Source: Candidatus Pantoea soli
GTDB taxonomy: Bacteria > Pseudomonadota > Gammaproteobacteria > Enterobacterales > Enterobacteriaceae
Length of the DNA stretch: 64,000 bases
Direction of reading: 5' to 3'
NCBI RefSeq assembly: GCF_007833795.1
Contig: NZ_CP032702.1
Location: 496,001 to 560,000, forward strand
Position numbers and translations under genes: made by a program. Of the stretch, positions 38,281-45,904 are shown in pieces. The stretch's first letter is position 1, and every line of letters starts with the position of its first letter. The notes beneath the pieces are model-generated. The model was not told the DNA's origin and ran no database searches. It was given only the letters and a program-made list of their open reading frames with translations.

Positions 38281-38365
38281 GCCGAAGTGGCGAAATCGGT
38301 AGACGCAGTTGATTCAAAATCAACCGTAGAAATACGTGCCGGTTCGAGTCCGGCCTTCGGCACCA
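38281..38365 (+). tRNA. leuX: tRNA-Leu (anticodon CAA), leuX type
   Basis: 85 bp, from GCCGAAGTGG to the encoded CCA. The anticodon arm GTTGA-TTCAAAA-TCAAC gives anticodon CAA; a long variable arm and the GGTTCGAGTCC T-arm are class II leucine features. Acceptor GCCGAAG pairs with CTTCGGC. leuX is a frequent integration site for genomic islands, and an integrase fragment follows in the same direction. Confidence 0.97.
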
Positions 38366-38454
38366 AGACTCATCTAATTAGTTGTTTCTAAGTAACTTTC
38401 TCTATGTTTTCGCTTGTAATTGCGTAGCCCTACTACAAAAGGCTATACGAGGCG

Positions 38455-38811
38455 ATGTCTCAGCGATATAAACTCTATCGTCGAACCAGTGGCATTTATG
38501 TTGTCCGCATCAGCGTTCCCCAACGTTTTCGTCGATACGCAGGACAGTGTGAGATTCCCACTTCAACAGGCACTCATGACCTTTATGAAGCAAAGCAGAA
38601 GTCCGCGCTCCTGTTGACGGTCTGGTATCAGACCTTACAAGCGTATGAACAATTGAATTATCGAGCTTTAAGTGACTGCGCCCCACTGCCTGATGGTGAG
38701 GGTATGATCTCGCTTTCTAACTTTGCTCAGTCAATCGAGTTGCCTGTATCGCAATTGATTCGAGAGGTGATTAATCGTAACCTCCCGGTATTCTGGCTGC
38801 TGTGTGAATAA
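38455..38811 (+). pseudogene. truncated island integrase, N-terminal fragment
   Basis: 118 codons beginning MSQRYKLYRRTSGIYVVRISVPQRF, the N-terminal domain (DUF6538-like) of large tyrosine recombinases found at tRNA sites. The catalytic C-terminal domain with its R-H-R-Y residues is absent; the frame ends at 38811 and no continuation is found in other frames. It starts 90 bp after leuX and in the same direction, as an integrase should. The island can no longer excise by its own enzyme. Confidence 0.7.
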
Positions 38812-39241
38812 GCAGTATGTTTAGACGATTGACCATCCCCAATTGAATATTCTTCTTATTTCTAAAAGGGCGAAAAACATCGAAATACAGGTGCGTTACG
38901 GTGGCGTTTTACCTTAGCCATGGAGCAGCGTGTTGCAAAAGATCATGAGATATCGTAATGCCTTGTAACCTCGTTGATTTGTCCCAACTACTGATGATCT
39001 TGCTCTGATACGCGATAACGTGGTCTCGATGAGTTTTCGTTATAAACAGTATCGACCATCCCCTCGTTCATCAAGTTGGTTACTATGTTCGCAACATTGC
39101 TAAACCCGGGAAGACCCCATATAGCAAGGGTGCGATCTAGCCTCATCCAGGTTCAGTAGATGTCTTTTTCTGCCCTGACTTTCAAGACATTGAGTTCTGT
39201 AGTGGTTAATGAGTATATCTCCGTTATCATGATGAATTAGG
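38812..39241. other. island DNA with no supported gene
   Basis: About 430 bp of AT-rich sequence between the integrase fragment and the immunity gene. A 63-codon minus-strand frame (39100-39291) overlaps the end of the immunity gene and has no recognisable product. Scattered stops in every frame suggest decayed DNA. Confidence 0.5.
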
Positions 39242-39541
39242 TCAAGCGAGTATGGCGTTTTCCCAACTGGCTTTAAGGCGTAATACCTCACTTAGTAATT
39301 CATCCTCGTTTAAATCATCTTCGTCGATTAACTCAGGATCTGAACAGTAAGAATCGACTAATGAGAAAACTGAGTCAAAAAACCTCTGGGTGGCTATATC
39401 GGCTTTTTTTATATCAGTTGAATCCCTGTAAGTTCGCCATGCGGCGGAGTATTCTTGTTCAAAATCCGGTGCAGCAATGTTACCGCACGTAAATGCGTCA
39501 ATAAGATCCAAAATCGCCGATTCATTTTGATTAAAAGACAT
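39242..39541 (-). CDS. colicin D-type immunity protein (orphan)
   Basis: 99 residues from ATG 39541 (MSFNQNESAILDLIDAF); ATG 39547 two codons upstream is an alternative with a poorer ribosome-site distance. All-helical and acidic; the C-terminal half FFDSVFSLVDSYCSDPELIDEDDLNEDELLSEV has the pattern of the Colicin_immun family, which neutralises tRNase toxins of the colicin D class. The start overlaps the stop of a toxin C-terminus, the normal toxin-immunity arrangement. The toxin itself is broken, so this gene now acts alone, perhaps protecting against relatives. Confidence 0.75.
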   Translation of the reverse strand: MSFNQNESAILDLIDAFTCGNIAAPDFEQEYSAAWRTYRDSTDIKKADIATQRFFDSVFSLVDSYCSDPELIDEDDLNEDELLSEVLRLKASWENAILA

Positions 39542-39657
39542 TGCCATTACCTATTAGGTCGGATGATTGAGTATCTGACAGCTTCCATCCGGAAATGAAG
39601 TTGCCATCAGTTTTTGTCATAACATTTAGTTTGGTTTCTGGATTGTAGTAGTGATAT
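39531..39657 (-). pseudogene. C-terminal remnant of a colicin D-like toxin, cut by an IS
   Basis: The minus strand reads YHYYNPETKLNV then MTKTDGNFISGWKLSD and ends IGNGNVF with TAA at 39531-39533, overlapping the immunity start. The strand-strand-GWKL ending is that of colicin D-like tRNase domains of polymorphic (CDI or bacteriocin) toxins. The IS3-family element enters at 39658. Beyond the IS the frame resumes for 15 codons (about 40877-40921, ...ENQPCPGDLTS) and hits TAA, so the upstream part of the toxin was already lost or is disrupted there. Confidence 0.7.
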
Positions 39658-39685
39658 GACCTGCCCCCAGGATTAGATACAACCT

Positions 39686-40519
39686 TCAGTTAGTAATGTC
39701 GGTTGGTTTTTCTTCATATTTCCCGTCTCGCCAGCCTGCTGCAAATTCAGCTGGCGTCTGGTAATCCAGAGATGAATGTGGTCGACACTCGTTATAATCC
39801 TGCCGCCAGTCATTAATGATTTCCCGGGCATGAAGAATATCGCTGAACCAGTGTTCATTCAGACATTCATCCCGGAAGCGGCCATTGAAGCTCTCAATAA
39901 ATCCGTTCTGCGTTGGCTTGCCTGGCTGGATTAAGCGCAACTCAACACCATGTTCAAAGGCCCATTGATCCAGCGCACGGCAGGTAAACTCCGGACCCTG
40001 ATCAGTTCTTATCGTTGCAGGATAGCCACGAAACAGCGCAATGCTGTCCAGAATGCGTGTCACCTGAACGCCTGTAATCCCGAATGCCGTGGTGATCGTC
40101 AGACACTCCTTCGTGAAATCATCCACGCAGGTCAGACACTTAACCCGGCGGCCGCTGGCAAGAGCATCCATGACAAAATCCATTGACCATGTCAGGTTCG
40201 GCGCATCCGGACGAAGAAGCGGAAGCCGCTCAGTCGCCAGCCCCTTGCGGCGTCGCCTGCGCTTTACACCCAGGCCGTTGAGATGATAGATGCGGTATAC
40301 CCGCTTGTGGTTGACGTGAAGGCCTTCCCGGCGCAGTAACTGCCAGATGCGCCGGTAGCCAAAGCGGCGGCGTTCAAGTGCCAGCTCTGTAATGCGTAGG
40401 GACAGCAACGCGTCAGCAGCCGGACGCTGAGCCGAATAACGGCAGGTCGACAGGGGCAAGCCTGCCAGCCTGCAGGCACGACGTTGCGACAGACCTGCGG
40501 CCTCACACATGACTTCCAC
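39686..40519 (-). CDS. IS3-family transposase OrfB
   Basis: 277 residues from the first ATG; the frame also extends upstream to join OrfA. HTH_21 region [18 protein letters not shown], then the DDE integrase core: [10 protein letters not shown] (D), TDQGPEF (D) and [15 protein letters not shown] (E). Produced as an OrfAB fusion by -1 frameshifting, probably at the A-AAG in CGAAAGTTCTGA at the end of orfA. Catalyses copy-and-paste transposition. Confidence 0.95.
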
Positions 40520-40542
40520 GGCTTCCCGCTTCTGGTCTGTCG

Positions 40543-40806
40543 TCAGAACTTTCGGCCCAGAGCCACCTGAAGCGCCTCCTTATCCAGCATGGCTTCAGCG
40601 AGCAGCTTCTTGAGGCGGGCATTCTCCTCTTCAAGCGACTTGAGCCGCTTCACTTCGGGGACTTCCATGCCGCCAAACTTCTTGCGCCAGGTGTAGAAGG
40701 TGGCGTCTGAAATAGCATGCTTGCGGCAGAGTTCCCGGGCCGAAACCCCGGCTTCTGCCTCGCGGAGAATACTGATGATCTGTTCGTCGGAAAATCGCTT
40801 CTTCAT
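40543..40806 (-). CDS. IS3-family transposase OrfA
   Basis: 87 residues. Helix-turn-helix of the transposase_8 family ([40 protein letters not shown]), then a leucine-zipper helix [27 protein letters not shown] for multimerisation. It binds the IS ends and also forms the front half of the OrfAB transposase. Confidence 0.95.
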
Positions 40807-41055
40807 GGGGACGTCCTCATGTGACTTATGAAGACATTACTAACATCACGGTGTATTAATCAACGGGGAGCAGGTCATATGATGTCAGGTCACCGGGACA
40901 AGGCTGGTTTTCCCTCCTGTATTATGCTGGGTAACTTAGATTTATCGCTGATACAAACAAATTATTGCGATTACGCTCTCATCATGCACAATGTTTAACC
41001 CTGATTAAAATTTATATCAAACAAGCTAATAATCTCTTAAATCACGGGATGGAGA

Positions 41056-44000
41056 ATGGACAGTAATACTCAGGGATTCACTGCATACTGGCGTAACACT
41101 TTGGCTGATGCCGAGTCTGGAAAAGGTGCATTTGAGCGTAAAGATGAAGACTCATTCACAAAATGGCGGGGCGTTAAGTCCGGAAGACTGGACGAGACGA
41201 CTGTCAAATCCCTCTTTGAAAATGAAGGAGAAAAAGTTAAGACAATTGAGGTGCTATTAAGACCTCAGGTATGGATTCGTCAATTCAAGCATGGCAAAGA
41301 GCGAACCGCTGGGGCTCCAGGTATTATTACCCCGCTGGTTACTGCTGCTTTATTGAATCGTGAAGGTTTTTTGTTCCCCTCTGCACCTGCTACCATTCCT
41401 CGTGATTTACTTGAACCACTTCCCAAAGGAAGCTTTGCAATTGGTGAAATGGCCAAATATGACAAATATAAAACTGTAAACAATTCAATCAGTTTTAGCC
41501 CGGAAGATGAGAATGAACACATCCAGGAAACAGAAGAGCAACGGGCGGAACGACATGCACATTATCAGCAGTTATGGCATACATATCTTAAAGATACTGA
41601 CGAACTTTTAAGATACGTCGCTGGCCAATGGCTTGTATCACCTGATCAATATGAATCAGCCGAATATGGCTACATCGTAAAAGCTAACCAGCCCGGTGGG
41701 GCCAGTATCCACATTTTGCCTATGTACGATCATTTACTCTCGTGCAAAAAAGAGGTCCCGTTACTAAGGCGTTTTGCCTCAAAAGAAAAAGTGCCTGTTG
41801 AGTCACTGCTGACCAGTAACGCCATGTTCAGTGAGCGTCTGGGACATTCCGGAGATAAGTTCCCGCTGGCTTTAGCGCAGCGCGACGCACTGAGCCATTA
41901 TCTTACTCAACAGCCGGGTGATATTCTTGCAGTGAATGGTCCGCCGGGAACAGGGAAAACCACCCTAGTGCTTTCTATTATTGCGACTGAGTGGGCGAGA
42001 GCAGCTTTAAAGAAAACCGAGCCACCGGTTGTGATTGCAACATCCACTAACAATCAGGCAGTAACTAACATTATCGAAGCCTTCGGCAAAGATTTTTCCG
42101 CTGGCACCGGGCCTATGGCCGGGCGTTGGCTACCTGAGGTGAAAAGCTTTGGCGCTTACTTTCCATCTTCAGGTCGAAAGGCTGAGGCGGCAAAAAAATA
42201 TCAGACAGAAGATTTTTTTAACCGTGTTGAATCCCTTGAATATGTTGAAGATGCCCGGTACTTCTTCCTTGAAAAAGCAAGGGCAGCTTTTCCGAATGAG
42301 GAATGTGATTCACCTGAACAGGTTGCGGAGCTCCTGCATCAGCGTTTGGTTGAACTCTCTGCAGAGCTTGAGCAAATTGAGCCTGCGTGGGATGACCTGA
42401 ACGCAATCCGCCAGAAGCGACATGCCATCAGTGACGATCTCGAACAGTATATTCAGGATAAGAGAACGTCATTGCTCAATAGCACAAATGAAATCTCGCT
42501 ATTAACGCAGGGCAAAAAACAGTGGGAACAATATCGAGCCGGTGAGTCGATACTGTTCGCTCTTTTCTCCTGGCTTCCCGCCGTTCGTACTAAGCGTCAC
42601 TATCAAATGAAGCTGTTTTTGGAGGCTACGTTTGGCGAAAGAATGACAGCATTCAAGGGATCTCAGCCTGATGGAATTGATGCCTTTATCGATGGATTGA
42701 TTGAACAAGCTCATAAAGAGCAGGCCGGCTATCAACAGCAAATTGATCTTGCTGAGGACATTTCCCGACGTGAAAGCGAAGCAGCTAAACGCTGGCATGA
42801 TATTACTTATTCACTGAAAAATCCGGGCGAAACAGAGTTGAGTCTGCACGAAGCCGATGAACTTGCCGATACACAGCTCCGTTTCCCAATGTTTTTGCTG
42901 GCGACGCATTATTGGGAAGGTCGGTGGCTGATGGATATGGCTGCCATAGATAATATTCAAAAAGAAAAAGGTCGTACTGGTGCGAAAAGTACAAAGGCCC
43001 GCTGGCAGCGTAGAATGAAGCTAACCCCCTGTGTAGTCATGACGTGCTTCATGTTTCCTTACCATATGAAAACCAGCGAGTTTGTCGGCGGCAATAAGAA
43101 ATTCGACGATAACTATTTATATAACTTTGCCGATTTACTCATTGTAGACGAAGCGGGGCAGGTGCTACCTGAGGTTGCCGCAGCCTCCTTCGCGCTGGCG
43201 AAGAAAGCCCTGGTGATTGGTGACACAGAGCAGATTGCGCCTATCTGGAATAGCTTGCCCGGTATTGATATCGGCAACATGGTTGAGGAGAACATCCTTC
43301 CTGTTGGTACTCAAGAAGAACTTACCGAATCTTATGCCCTGGTGTGTGACTCAGGAAAGAGTGCTGCATCTGGCAGTGTCATGAAGGTTGCTCAGTTTAA
43401 TTCGCGCTATCAATATGATCCGGACTTTGCGAGAGGAATGTATCTGTATGAACACCGTCGTTGCTTCGATAACATCATTGGCTACTGTAACACCCTCTGC
43501 TATCACGGTAAGTTGCAGCCCAAACGAGGCGAAGAAAAAGAGACAATATTTCCTGCAATGGGATATTTGCATATTGATGGTAAAGGTGTGCAGGGCAATG
43601 GAGGAAGCCGTTATAACGCCTTTGAAGCTGAGACGATAGTTGCGTGGCTTGCGGCGCATAAAGAGGAAATCGAGCGTCATTATGGTGAACCTCTACATAA
43701 AGTAGTGGGGGTTGTTACCCCATTTTCGGCACAAGTCAGTACGATTAAATCGTCATTACGTAAGCTGGATTTTAATTGTAGTGGCGATGAAAATTCGCTG
43801 ACAGTCGGTACTGTCCATTCATTGCAGGGGGCGGAAAGGGCGATTGTGCTTTTCTCTCCGGTTTATTCGAAGCATGAAGATGGCGGGTTTATCGACAGCG
43901 ACAGCAGCATGCTGAACGTTGCCGTCTCGCGTGCTAAAGATAGTTTCCTGGTCTTTGGCGATATGGATCTGTTTGAAATCCAGCCTGGCTCTTCGCCGCG

Positions 44001-44574
44001 AGGATTACTCGCAAAATACCTCTTTGCGTCTGCCAGAAATGCCCTGCAATTTGAATACAAAGAGCGCCCTGATCTTCATACAGGACAAACCCTGGTCTCT
44101 ACTTTACATGGCGTTGAGCAGCATGATGCGTTTCTAAATCAGACTTTTGAAGCTATCGGTAAGAGTATTACTATTGTTTCACCTTGGTTGACCTGGCACA
44201 AGCTGGAGCAAACCGGTTTTCTGATTTCAATGATGCAGGCTCGCGCTCGTGGCATCGATATCACCGTGGTAACGGATAAAAGTTTCAATACTGAAGATGC
44301 CGATTATGAGAAGCATAAAGAAAAACAGCAGCGCCTTAATGTTGCAGTAAATAAACTTAATGATATAGGCATCGTGACGAAGCTGGTCAATCGTGTTCAC
44401 AGTAAAATTGTGATTGGTGATGAAGATCTATTATGTATCGGATCGTTCAACTGGTTTAGTGCTACACGGCATGAAAAATTTCAACGTTACGATACGTCAA
44501 TGGTATATCGTGGTGGAAGCTTAAAGAATGAAATTAAAACGATATATTCCAGTCTGGAACAGCGTCAGCTGTAA
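41056..44574 (+). CDS. SF1 helicase-PLD nuclease fusion, candidate Mokosh type II antiphage protein
   Basis: 1172 residues. SF1/UPF1-like (COG1112) helicase motifs in order: Walker [10 protein letters not shown] 295-303 (K301), Walker B DEAGQ 698-702, motif [11 protein letters not shown] 722-729, EHRR at 799, motif [13 protein letters not shown] 916-927, motif [10 protein letters not shown] 954-961 (R959). A helical insert of about 350 residues lies between motifs I and II. The C-terminus (about 1045-1165) is a PLD-type domain with one HxK(x)4D site, H1115, K1117, D1122, then GSFNW. This order is that of MkoC, the single-protein type II Mokosh defence system. Residues 1-280 are unrecognised. 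Low GC, in a leuX island. Confidence 0.8.
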
Positions 44575-44611
44575 TTGCGTCATAATATTTTTCTGATAGG
44601 GTTTTGCAAAC

Positions 44612-44651
44612 ATTACCTGGCATCATCGGCATAGTGATGCTGCCAGGTAAT
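44612..44651 (+). terminator. hairpin after the helicase-nuclease gene
   Basis: ATTACCTGG / CCAGGTAAT with an inner CATCA / TGATG stem, 38 bp after the stop. It has no long T run but is the strongest hairpin in the area, and probably ends the transcript. Confidence 0.6.
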
Positions 44652-44710
44652 TATTCAAAGCATTATTTATTGTAGATACATAAATATCCGATACTCCAAT
44701 AAAGTTGGCC

Positions 44711-44764
44711 CCCACACCCACACCCACACCCACACCCACACCCACACCCACACCCAGACCCACA
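44711..44764. repeat. CCCACA hexamer tract, nine units
   Basis: Seven exact CCCACA units, one CCCAGA variant and a final CCCACA in unbroken register. It lies 93 bp upstream of the DUF1176 gene start, at the edge of the island. Such tracts change length by slippage. Confidence 0.95.
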
Positions 44765-44857
44765 CCTTCTCCCGGCACCGCCCTGCGCAAAAAATTCACT
44801 TCTCCCGCGCCGTAAAAATCATCACACTAGCTGCCTTAACCATTATGGAGAGATGGC

Positions 44858-45904
44858 ATGAAAACCCGATTGCTGCTGGCGCTGTCGCTGTTCGCCAGCC
44901 TGAGTGCGCCGCTGCTGGCCGATGATGGCGTCTCCTTTAGCCACAAAGACTGGGAGCTGGCGTGTGATAACACCCGCACCTGCCGCGCCGCGGGCTACAG
45001 TGCGGAAGAGGGCGCAGGCGGTTCCGTCCTGCTGACGCGCGCCGGCGGGCCGGATGCGCCAACGCACGGGCGCGTGGTGCTGGCGGATACCGGCGATGAT
45101 GACTCAAAGCAGGTCGATACTTTGTCGCTGTGGATCGATGATCGGGCGCTGGGGGAAGCGACCAAAGCAGAAAACGATGAATGGACGCTGACTGATGCGC
45201 AAACACAGGCGCTGATCGCCGCGATCAAAGCCAGCGGCAAAGTAGAGTTTCGCGGCGGTGAAGAGCCGTTCGAGCTCTCCGGCAACGGGGCGTTTGCCGT
45301 GCTGCTGAAAATGGACGAGGCGCAGGGGCGGATCGGTACGCCGGGCGCACTGCTGCGCAAAGGTGATAAGCCGGAAAGCAGCGTTCCGCCCGCCGTCGCG
45401 CTGCCGGTGATCCAGCGGGTGAAAGTGGCGAAAGCCGCGCCGCGTCCGCTGACGGCAGATGAGCTGGCAAGCGTGAAACCGAAGCTTGTCGCCTCTCTCA
45501 CCGATGATGACAGCTGCGATAATCTGGCACCAGGAGATGACCAGCCGGAAGAGGGCGCGGAACCGCCGACGCTGACGCCGGTTGACGATCACCACGTGCT
45601 GATCGCCGCCCTCTGCTGGCGCGGTGCCTATAACGAAGGGTACGGTTTCTGGCTGATGGATCGTGCGCTGCAGGGCCAGCCGGAGCTGATCACGGATTCC
45701 GGTTCTGATTACAGCGAAGGTGAGATTACCGAAGCGCAGAAAGGGCGCGGCATCGGTGACTGCTGGAGCACGGCGGCCTGGGTGTGGGATGGCAAAACCT
45801 TTGTGCAGAGCAGCGATGCCACCACCGGCATGTGCCGCGCCATCCGTGCCGGCGGTGCCTGGCAGTTACCCACCTGGGTAACGGAGGTAAAAGCGGCACC
45901 GTAA
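44858..45904 (+). CDS. DUF1176 domain-containing exported protein
   Basis: 348 residues with a Sec signal peptide (LLLALSLFASLSAPLLA, cleaved near residue 21). DUF1176 features: FSHKDWELACDNTRTCRAAGY at the mature N-terminus, and four later cysteines in SCDN, LCWRG, DCWS and MCRA. Periplasmic, function unknown. ATG 44858 follows GGAGAG. The hexamer tract lies just upstream, outside the likely core promoter. Confidence 0.88.
   Translation: MKTRLLLALSLFASLSAPLLADDGVSFSHKDWELACDNTRTCRAAGYSAEEGAGGSVLLTRAGGPDAPTHGRVVLADTGDDDSKQVDTLSLWIDDRALGEATKAENDEWTLTDAQTQALIAAIKASGKVEFRGGEEPFELSGNGAFAVLLKMDEAQGRIGTPGALLRKGDKPESSVPPAVALPVIQRVKVAKAAPRPLTADELASVKPKLVASLTDDDSCDNLAPGDDQPEEGAEPPTLTPVDDHHVLIAALCWRGAYNEGYGFWLMDRALQGQPELITDSGSDYSEGEITEAQKGRGIGDCWSTAAWVWDGKTFVQSSDATTGMCRAIRAGGAWQLPTWVTEVKAAP

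Follow-up and report, generated by a model that had tools for sequence, protein, structure and literature searches.

An intact-looking type II Mokosh (MkoC-like) gene, with a probable promoter of its own, in the leuX hotspot of Candidatus Pantoea soli

The stretch of DNA analysed here, 64,000 nucleotides of contig NZ_CP032702.1 from Candidatus Pantoea soli (positions 496,001 to 560,000; hereafter the window), carries a gene for a protein of 1172 amino acids downstream of the tRNA gene leuX. The results indicate, with a probability of roughly 0.9, that this gene, mkoC, is a Pantoea antiphage gene of Mokosh type II that looks intact, is situated in the leuX hotspot and has a probable promoter of its own. 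The Mokosh family was reportedly described as antiphage in Millman et al. 2022. A passage in PMC11672841 likewise describes it as antiphage, and type II as a single protein in which a COG1112-type helicase at the N-terminus is joined to a PLD nuclease at the C-terminus.

A type II Mokosh identity had been proposed in an earlier note made from the sequence alone, and the search with an MkoC model that the note called for supports it. The PADLOC model for MkoC was matched over its whole length (1523 bits; residues 1-1170 against positions 1-1135 of the 1136 in the profile), and the domain order agrees. The next-best PADLOC model, MkoA of Mokosh type I, scored 118 bits, with its best stretch limited to residues 693-974 and no full-length match; MkoB gave a weak score of 42 bits. 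The Pfam families above their cut-offs were AAA_11, AAA_12, PLDc_2 (33.1 bits, cut-off 27) and PLDc. None of the 17 NCBIfam families listed reached its own cut-off, and the housekeeping family TIGR00376 (IGHMBP2 family helicase) fell far short, at 67.5 bits versus a curated 348.9, as did the nuclease NucT (NF010490), at 15.4 bits versus 211. A protein database search returned 1333 proteins at an E value of 0.001 among 7992 scored candidates. Among the best 120 matches listed, the closest relatives besides the window's own entry were full-length matches at 88 to 85% identity, and some of them bore the names 'helicase YjhR' or 'AAA domain-containing protein'.

The features of a type II system are all present. 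There is an N-terminal superfamily 1 (SF1), COG1112-type helicase with complete motifs, as judged from motifs, Pfam and fold rather than from COG models, and a C-terminal PLD domain with an HKD motif (PLDc_2, NucT fold, H1115/K1117/D1122). The system consists of a single gene without a separate PLD or kinase gene, as seen from the open reading frames (ORFs) of the island (38455-40806) and from the right-hand neighbour, a DUF1176 gene. Mokosh type I, in contrast, is described in the same passage (PMC11672841) as having two genes and a kinase domain, whereas the present system has one gene and no Pfam kinase match listed; the helicase and PLD parts score weakly with both type I models. No feature was found that separates the protein from type II, the helical arm and UPF1-type N-terminus described below being common to the aligned relatives. 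It is an ordinary member of a known antiphage family.

The reading frame starts with ATG and has no internal stop, and all of the motifs quoted in the earlier note lie at the residues given there. The helicase motifs are GPPGTGKTT (295-303), DEAGQ (698-702), GDTEQ (722-726), a further motif at 916-927 and VAVSRAK (955-961); the single C-terminal HKD motif is followed by GSFNW (1129-1133). Neither the ordered helicase motifs nor the HKD-plus-GSxN pattern was recovered in composition shuffles (0/2000 for each), and the complete SF1 set with one HKD motif is borne out. The copy is apparently intact.

In the predicted structure an SF1 helicase resembling UPF1 precedes a NucT-like PLD domain, the fold that the note had said should be sought in the C-terminus. 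The helicase part aligns in fold with IGHMBP2, UPF1, senataxin and DNA2. In the structure rows quoted, identity to these helicases and to the nucleases NucT and PLD4 is 12-23%; helicase and PLD are on separate proteins in these structures but fused in MkoC, and the likeness of the PLD part to NucT is in fold only. The first 280 residues and a long insert had been put forward as the possible sensing part. The N-terminus is most likely, from the structural model, the stalk together with the 1B region of a helicase of the UPF1 family and not an unknown sensor. The insert is a coiled-coil arm between motifs Ia and II, which is kept as the best sensing candidate among other possible roles. The arm (about residues 394-630) had no significant match in the PDB, and its foot is nearly invariant among relatives (R609, F610, F613, H618-W624). 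No solved Mokosh structure was found by sequence search, the 9 distinct sequences matched all being other helicases (20-25 bits). In a search of viral structures the named rows were mainly viral helicases and replicases, with no MkoC name among the best 50.

Copies at different insertion sites share a conserved stretch of approximately 100 bases 5' of the start codon, and upstream of it similarity falls off. This module contains a probable promoter, suggested by the alignment: TTGCGA (40965-40970), a 16-base spacer and CACAAT (40987-40992). The box pair with a 16-base spacer was observed in 20 of the 32 upstream regions, a count that is descriptive and not a test, the pattern having been read off the same alignment; it is missing in the other 12 (L017, L018, L023, L025, L028, L034, L035, L037, L038, L040, L069 and L055). 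A general promoter scan that demanded 9 of 12 matches did not return the proposed promoter; it gave a weak site at 41005-41033 (1 found versus 0.9 in shuffles).

The gene lies in DNA of distinctly low G+C content, as the note had stated: 0.469 for the 6.5 kb from tRNA-Leu(CAA) to the DUF1176 gene (38366-44857) and 0.460 for mkoC, versus 0.593 for the rest of the window. The integrase scrap reported beside the tRNA was also recovered, and is now identified as the truncated start of a leuX-island integrase. Its ORF (38455-38811) is 89% identical over 115 residues to the beginning of a protein annotated as a site-specific integrase. The DNA from 38366 aligns at 91.5% (query bases 1-434 of 495) with E. 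coli O157:H7, under an annotated site-specific integrase, the match in each genome starting with the base that directly follows tRNA-Leu. This integrase DNA has a match in 649 of 5426 E. coli genomes, covering at least 80% of the query in 582. The remainder in the window is 118 residues, as opposed to a gene of 1950 bases in O157:H7. A match to the integrase next to leuX in E. coli B25FEP was considered and rejected, the scrap being unlike it. The only exact copy of the tRNA 3' end in the window is that in the tRNA itself; four other matches have 3 mismatches each, and none is at the right edge of the island. With no right-hand attachment (att) copy, no intact integrative element can be delimited.

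The leuX gene is described as the richest defence spot of E. coli in a passage of PMC13379101. A homologue of the DUF1176 gene (at least 77% identity) was found downstream of leuX on the same contig in 11 of 24 genomes of the genus, the window's own included, with gaps of 4.3 to 51 kb. The contents include a type III restriction-modification (RM) pair with IetS (G001), a type IIG RM enzyme (G006), McrBC (G013) and a helicase lacking a PLD part (G023). Full-length MkoC is sporadic: it occurs in 4 of 61 genomes of the genus, near leuX in the window (2.7 kb) and in G329 (about 190 bases), elsewhere in G018 and at a contig start in G020. In the order it was found in 9 of 295 genomes at E values up to 1e-150 (42-100% identity). 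A related gene is also present in Pantoea anthophila LMG 2558, and a passage in PMC10999674 reports type II Mokosh on a Pantoea agglomerans chromosome. Seven phage records contain a match, one of which, unannotated, spans 81% of the query at 31% identity.

For MkoC loci of named genomes, leuX was within the fetched flank (up to 10 kb) at 7 of 35, always upstream and in the same direction, against a chance expectation that we estimate at about 0.2 of 35; three of the seven copies are partial (L036, L038 and L043). It was absent from the fetched flank at the other 28. Vertical inheritance of one old leuX resident was considered and rejected, for the leuX label is not clustered on a quick tree of 31 proteins. 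It changes 8 times (6 forced by starred branches) against a shuffled mean of 7.3, with 500 of 500 shuffles as low, leuX beyond the fetched flank being scored as 'other' and the leuX row L036_part, translated across an indel, forming a false long branch. This scatter suggests repeated arrival of mkoC at leuX.

On the sequence evidence, yjhR of E. coli and mkoC are genes of one kind. In strain 2020CK-00188 a complete yjhR lies about 300 bases after tRNA-Leu and is 72.8% identical in DNA to mkoC over the full length. In the K-12 HMS174 and BL21 Star records viewed, in contrast, about the last 35% (3') is kept as an annotated frameshifted pseudogene. Two further complete E. coli copies have satellite-like genes upstream, as read from gene names, and no leuX within 6 kb. 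A distant blastn search with the window's mkoC found matches in 2274 of 5426 E. coli genomes, with at least 80% coverage in 65. With the leuX-lineage (yjhR) query, 1719 genomes matched, only 10 of them over at least 80% of the length; the first 500 bases of this query matched 10 genomes in near mode. A tRNA-Phe-lineage query matched 878 genomes, 829 over at least 80%. The tRNA-Phe lineage is therefore mostly whole and the leuX lineage mostly decayed. The two tRNA-Phe loci viewed both adjoin tRNA-Phe and an integrase; one copy is complete and one truncated. No literature linking the names yjhR and Mokosh was found among open-licence papers, the 8 that mention yjhR and the 40 listed, of 41, that mention Mokosh having none in common.

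A mechanism may be proposed for the protein. Phage infection would expose single-stranded nucleic acid (transcripts or single-stranded DNA), which the UPF1-like motor would bind and along which it would move with ATP, feeding the strand into the C-terminal PLD nuclease for cutting. Because each chain has one HKD motif, two chains probably pair to form one active site. Sensing, binding of a partner or assembly would most plausibly fall to the coiled-coil arm. In the open-licence literature searched, no study of the Mokosh mechanism was conspicuous, and a 2026 review, in the part concerned, groups the mechanism under unknown (PMC12926258).

Several points weigh against the interpretation as a working antiphage gene. 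The single HKD motif requires pairing of chains; the element around the gene is eroded; the leuX lineage in E. coli is seldom whole, as noted above; and the copy in G162, one of the nine in the order, carries two stops. The frequent breakage of related copies would likewise be expected of a gene that is costly or useful only now and then. Mokosh is cited from others as inactive against phage P1 in a passage of the Pantoea agglomerans L15 paper (PMC10999674), and the degradation of foreign viral transcripts is stated, not tested, in a passage of PMC11291487.

A housekeeping helicase-nuclease for repair or RNA processing, of the IGHMBP2/TIGR00376 kind and merely resembling a defence gene, might account for the fold of the helicase part and the weak TIGR00376 match. 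It is, however, very improbable, since that score is far under the cut-off whereas MkoC is matched end to end, and since the sporadic full-length copies are unlike a core gene. It is also rather unlikely that the family is right but the copy a dead relic, silent or useless here. The truncated integrase, the insertion sequence, the lone immunity gene and the decay of relatives at leuX would suit a relic, but there is no internal stop, all of the motifs are intact, and the upstream module is complete at about 75 bases from the end of the insertion sequence. A role in guarding against plasmids or competing mobile elements, and not against lytic phages, is somewhat less unlikely: the neighbours and the insertion site belong to integrative elements, and two of the complete E. 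coli copies have satellite-like genes next to them. The present results do not separate this function from an antiphage one, but the family is described as antiphage (PMC11672841, in the passage cited).

Taken together, the data favour an antiphage gene of the type II Mokosh family. Membership of this family is shown by the profile match, the domain order, the intact motifs, the predicted folds and the location, and from the family the protein would be expected to act against phages. A more detailed proposal is offered only tentatively: MkoC might be a one-chain bacterial counterpart of eukaryotic UPF1-like helicase/PLD nuclease pairs, walking along phage transcripts and shredding them through a paired PLD site with the arm as infection sensor, and a promoter-plus-ORF cassette might repeatedly enter leuX and then decay, leaving the yjhR fossil of K-12 and BL21.

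The features discussed are collected in the table below. The insertion sequence is one that we take to be IS3-family-like. The colicin-immunity-like gene stands alone in the island, no toxin gene having been called beside it in the ORF and Pfam annotation of the window. A tandem array, (CCCACA)9, of telomere-like appearance lies downstream of mkoC, before the DUF1176 gene (44711-44766).

Features of the window and related loci in other Pantoea genomes
Feature	Position	Strand	Evidence
tRNA-Leu(CAA), leuX, integration target at left edge of island	38281..38365	+	ARAGORN
Truncated 5' end of leuX-island integrase (ORF 38455-38811, 118 aa, Pfam DUF6538)	38366..38811	+	Pfam, protein and DNA matches
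Colicin-immunity-like protein, 101 aa (PF09204, 47 bits)	39242..39547	-	Pfam
Insertion sequence; transposase ORFs 40543-40806 and 39686-40519 between inverted repeats 39654-39668 / 40866-40880	39654..40880	-	ORFs, Pfam, repeat search
Upstream module kept between copies at different sites	40955..41055	+	Alignment of upstream regions
mkoC, type II Mokosh gene, 1172 aa	41056..44574	+	ORF call and profile match
Probable stalk and 1B region of UPF1-like helicase, residues 1-270	41056..41865	+	Structure-match ranges, aligned lengths, secondary structure
RecA-like domain 1, first part (Walker A, motif Ia), residues 271-346	41866..42093	+	Pfam, structure
Coiled-coil arm, residues 394-630	42235..42945	+	Predicted structure, alignment of relatives
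End of RecA-like domain 1 (DEAGQ, GDTEQ) and RecA-like domain 2 (motifs IV-VI), residues 691-990	43126..44025	+	Pfam, structure
PLD nuclease domain, one HKD motif, residues 1011-1172	44086..44571	+	Pfam, structure, motif scan
DUF1176 gene, right flank of leuX hotspot in Pantoea	44858..45904	+	Genus comparison
PLD-less MkoC-related helicase	L059:1352-4594	+
PLD-less MkoC-related helicase	L077:5339-8572	-
PLD-less MkoC-related helicase	L078:14686-17919	-
Frame of 1205-1251 residues	G009:C10:58895-60238
Frame of 1205-1251 residues	G317:C2:1476846-1478189
Frame of 1205-1251 residues	G021:C11:327610-328938

Other observations were made in the genus. The leuX regions of G023, G335 and G336 contain an MkoC-related helicase of 1077-1080 residues without the PLD part. 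The one at L059 scores 237 bits with MkoC, and those at L077 and L078 are 67% identical to it. No named family exceeded its own cut-off for this helicase, a relative that perhaps uses a different partner or effector. The frames of 1205-1251 residues match MkoC residues 677-1146 (the second helicase part and PLD) at 26-28% identity and represent another Mokosh-like protein. The gaps of 43-51 kb in G004 (L063, L064) and G021 (L062, L065) contain flagellar/chemotaxis-looking genes, judged from protein starts only. In the G001 gap (L049; G001:C29:37853-37963) a piece matches the last 37 MkoC residues at 59% identity, possibly a relic of a lost mkoC copy.

The system itself is of a known kind; what is added is a revised assignment of the domains, an identification of the integrase scrap, the upstream module shared between copies at different sites and the connection with YjhR. 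An intact-looking Pantoea copy joins a defence family whose mechanism the 2026 review cited above still classes as unknown (PMC12926258), and the specific layout of a UPF1-like core, a coiled-coil arm and a PLD domain replaces the idea of an unknown N-terminal sensor. Through the yjhR link, mkoC can be studied beside its own relic in laboratory E. coli. If the tentative cassette proposal is true, the K-12 and BL21 strains, the usual hosts of defence screens, would be natural nulls for this lineage.
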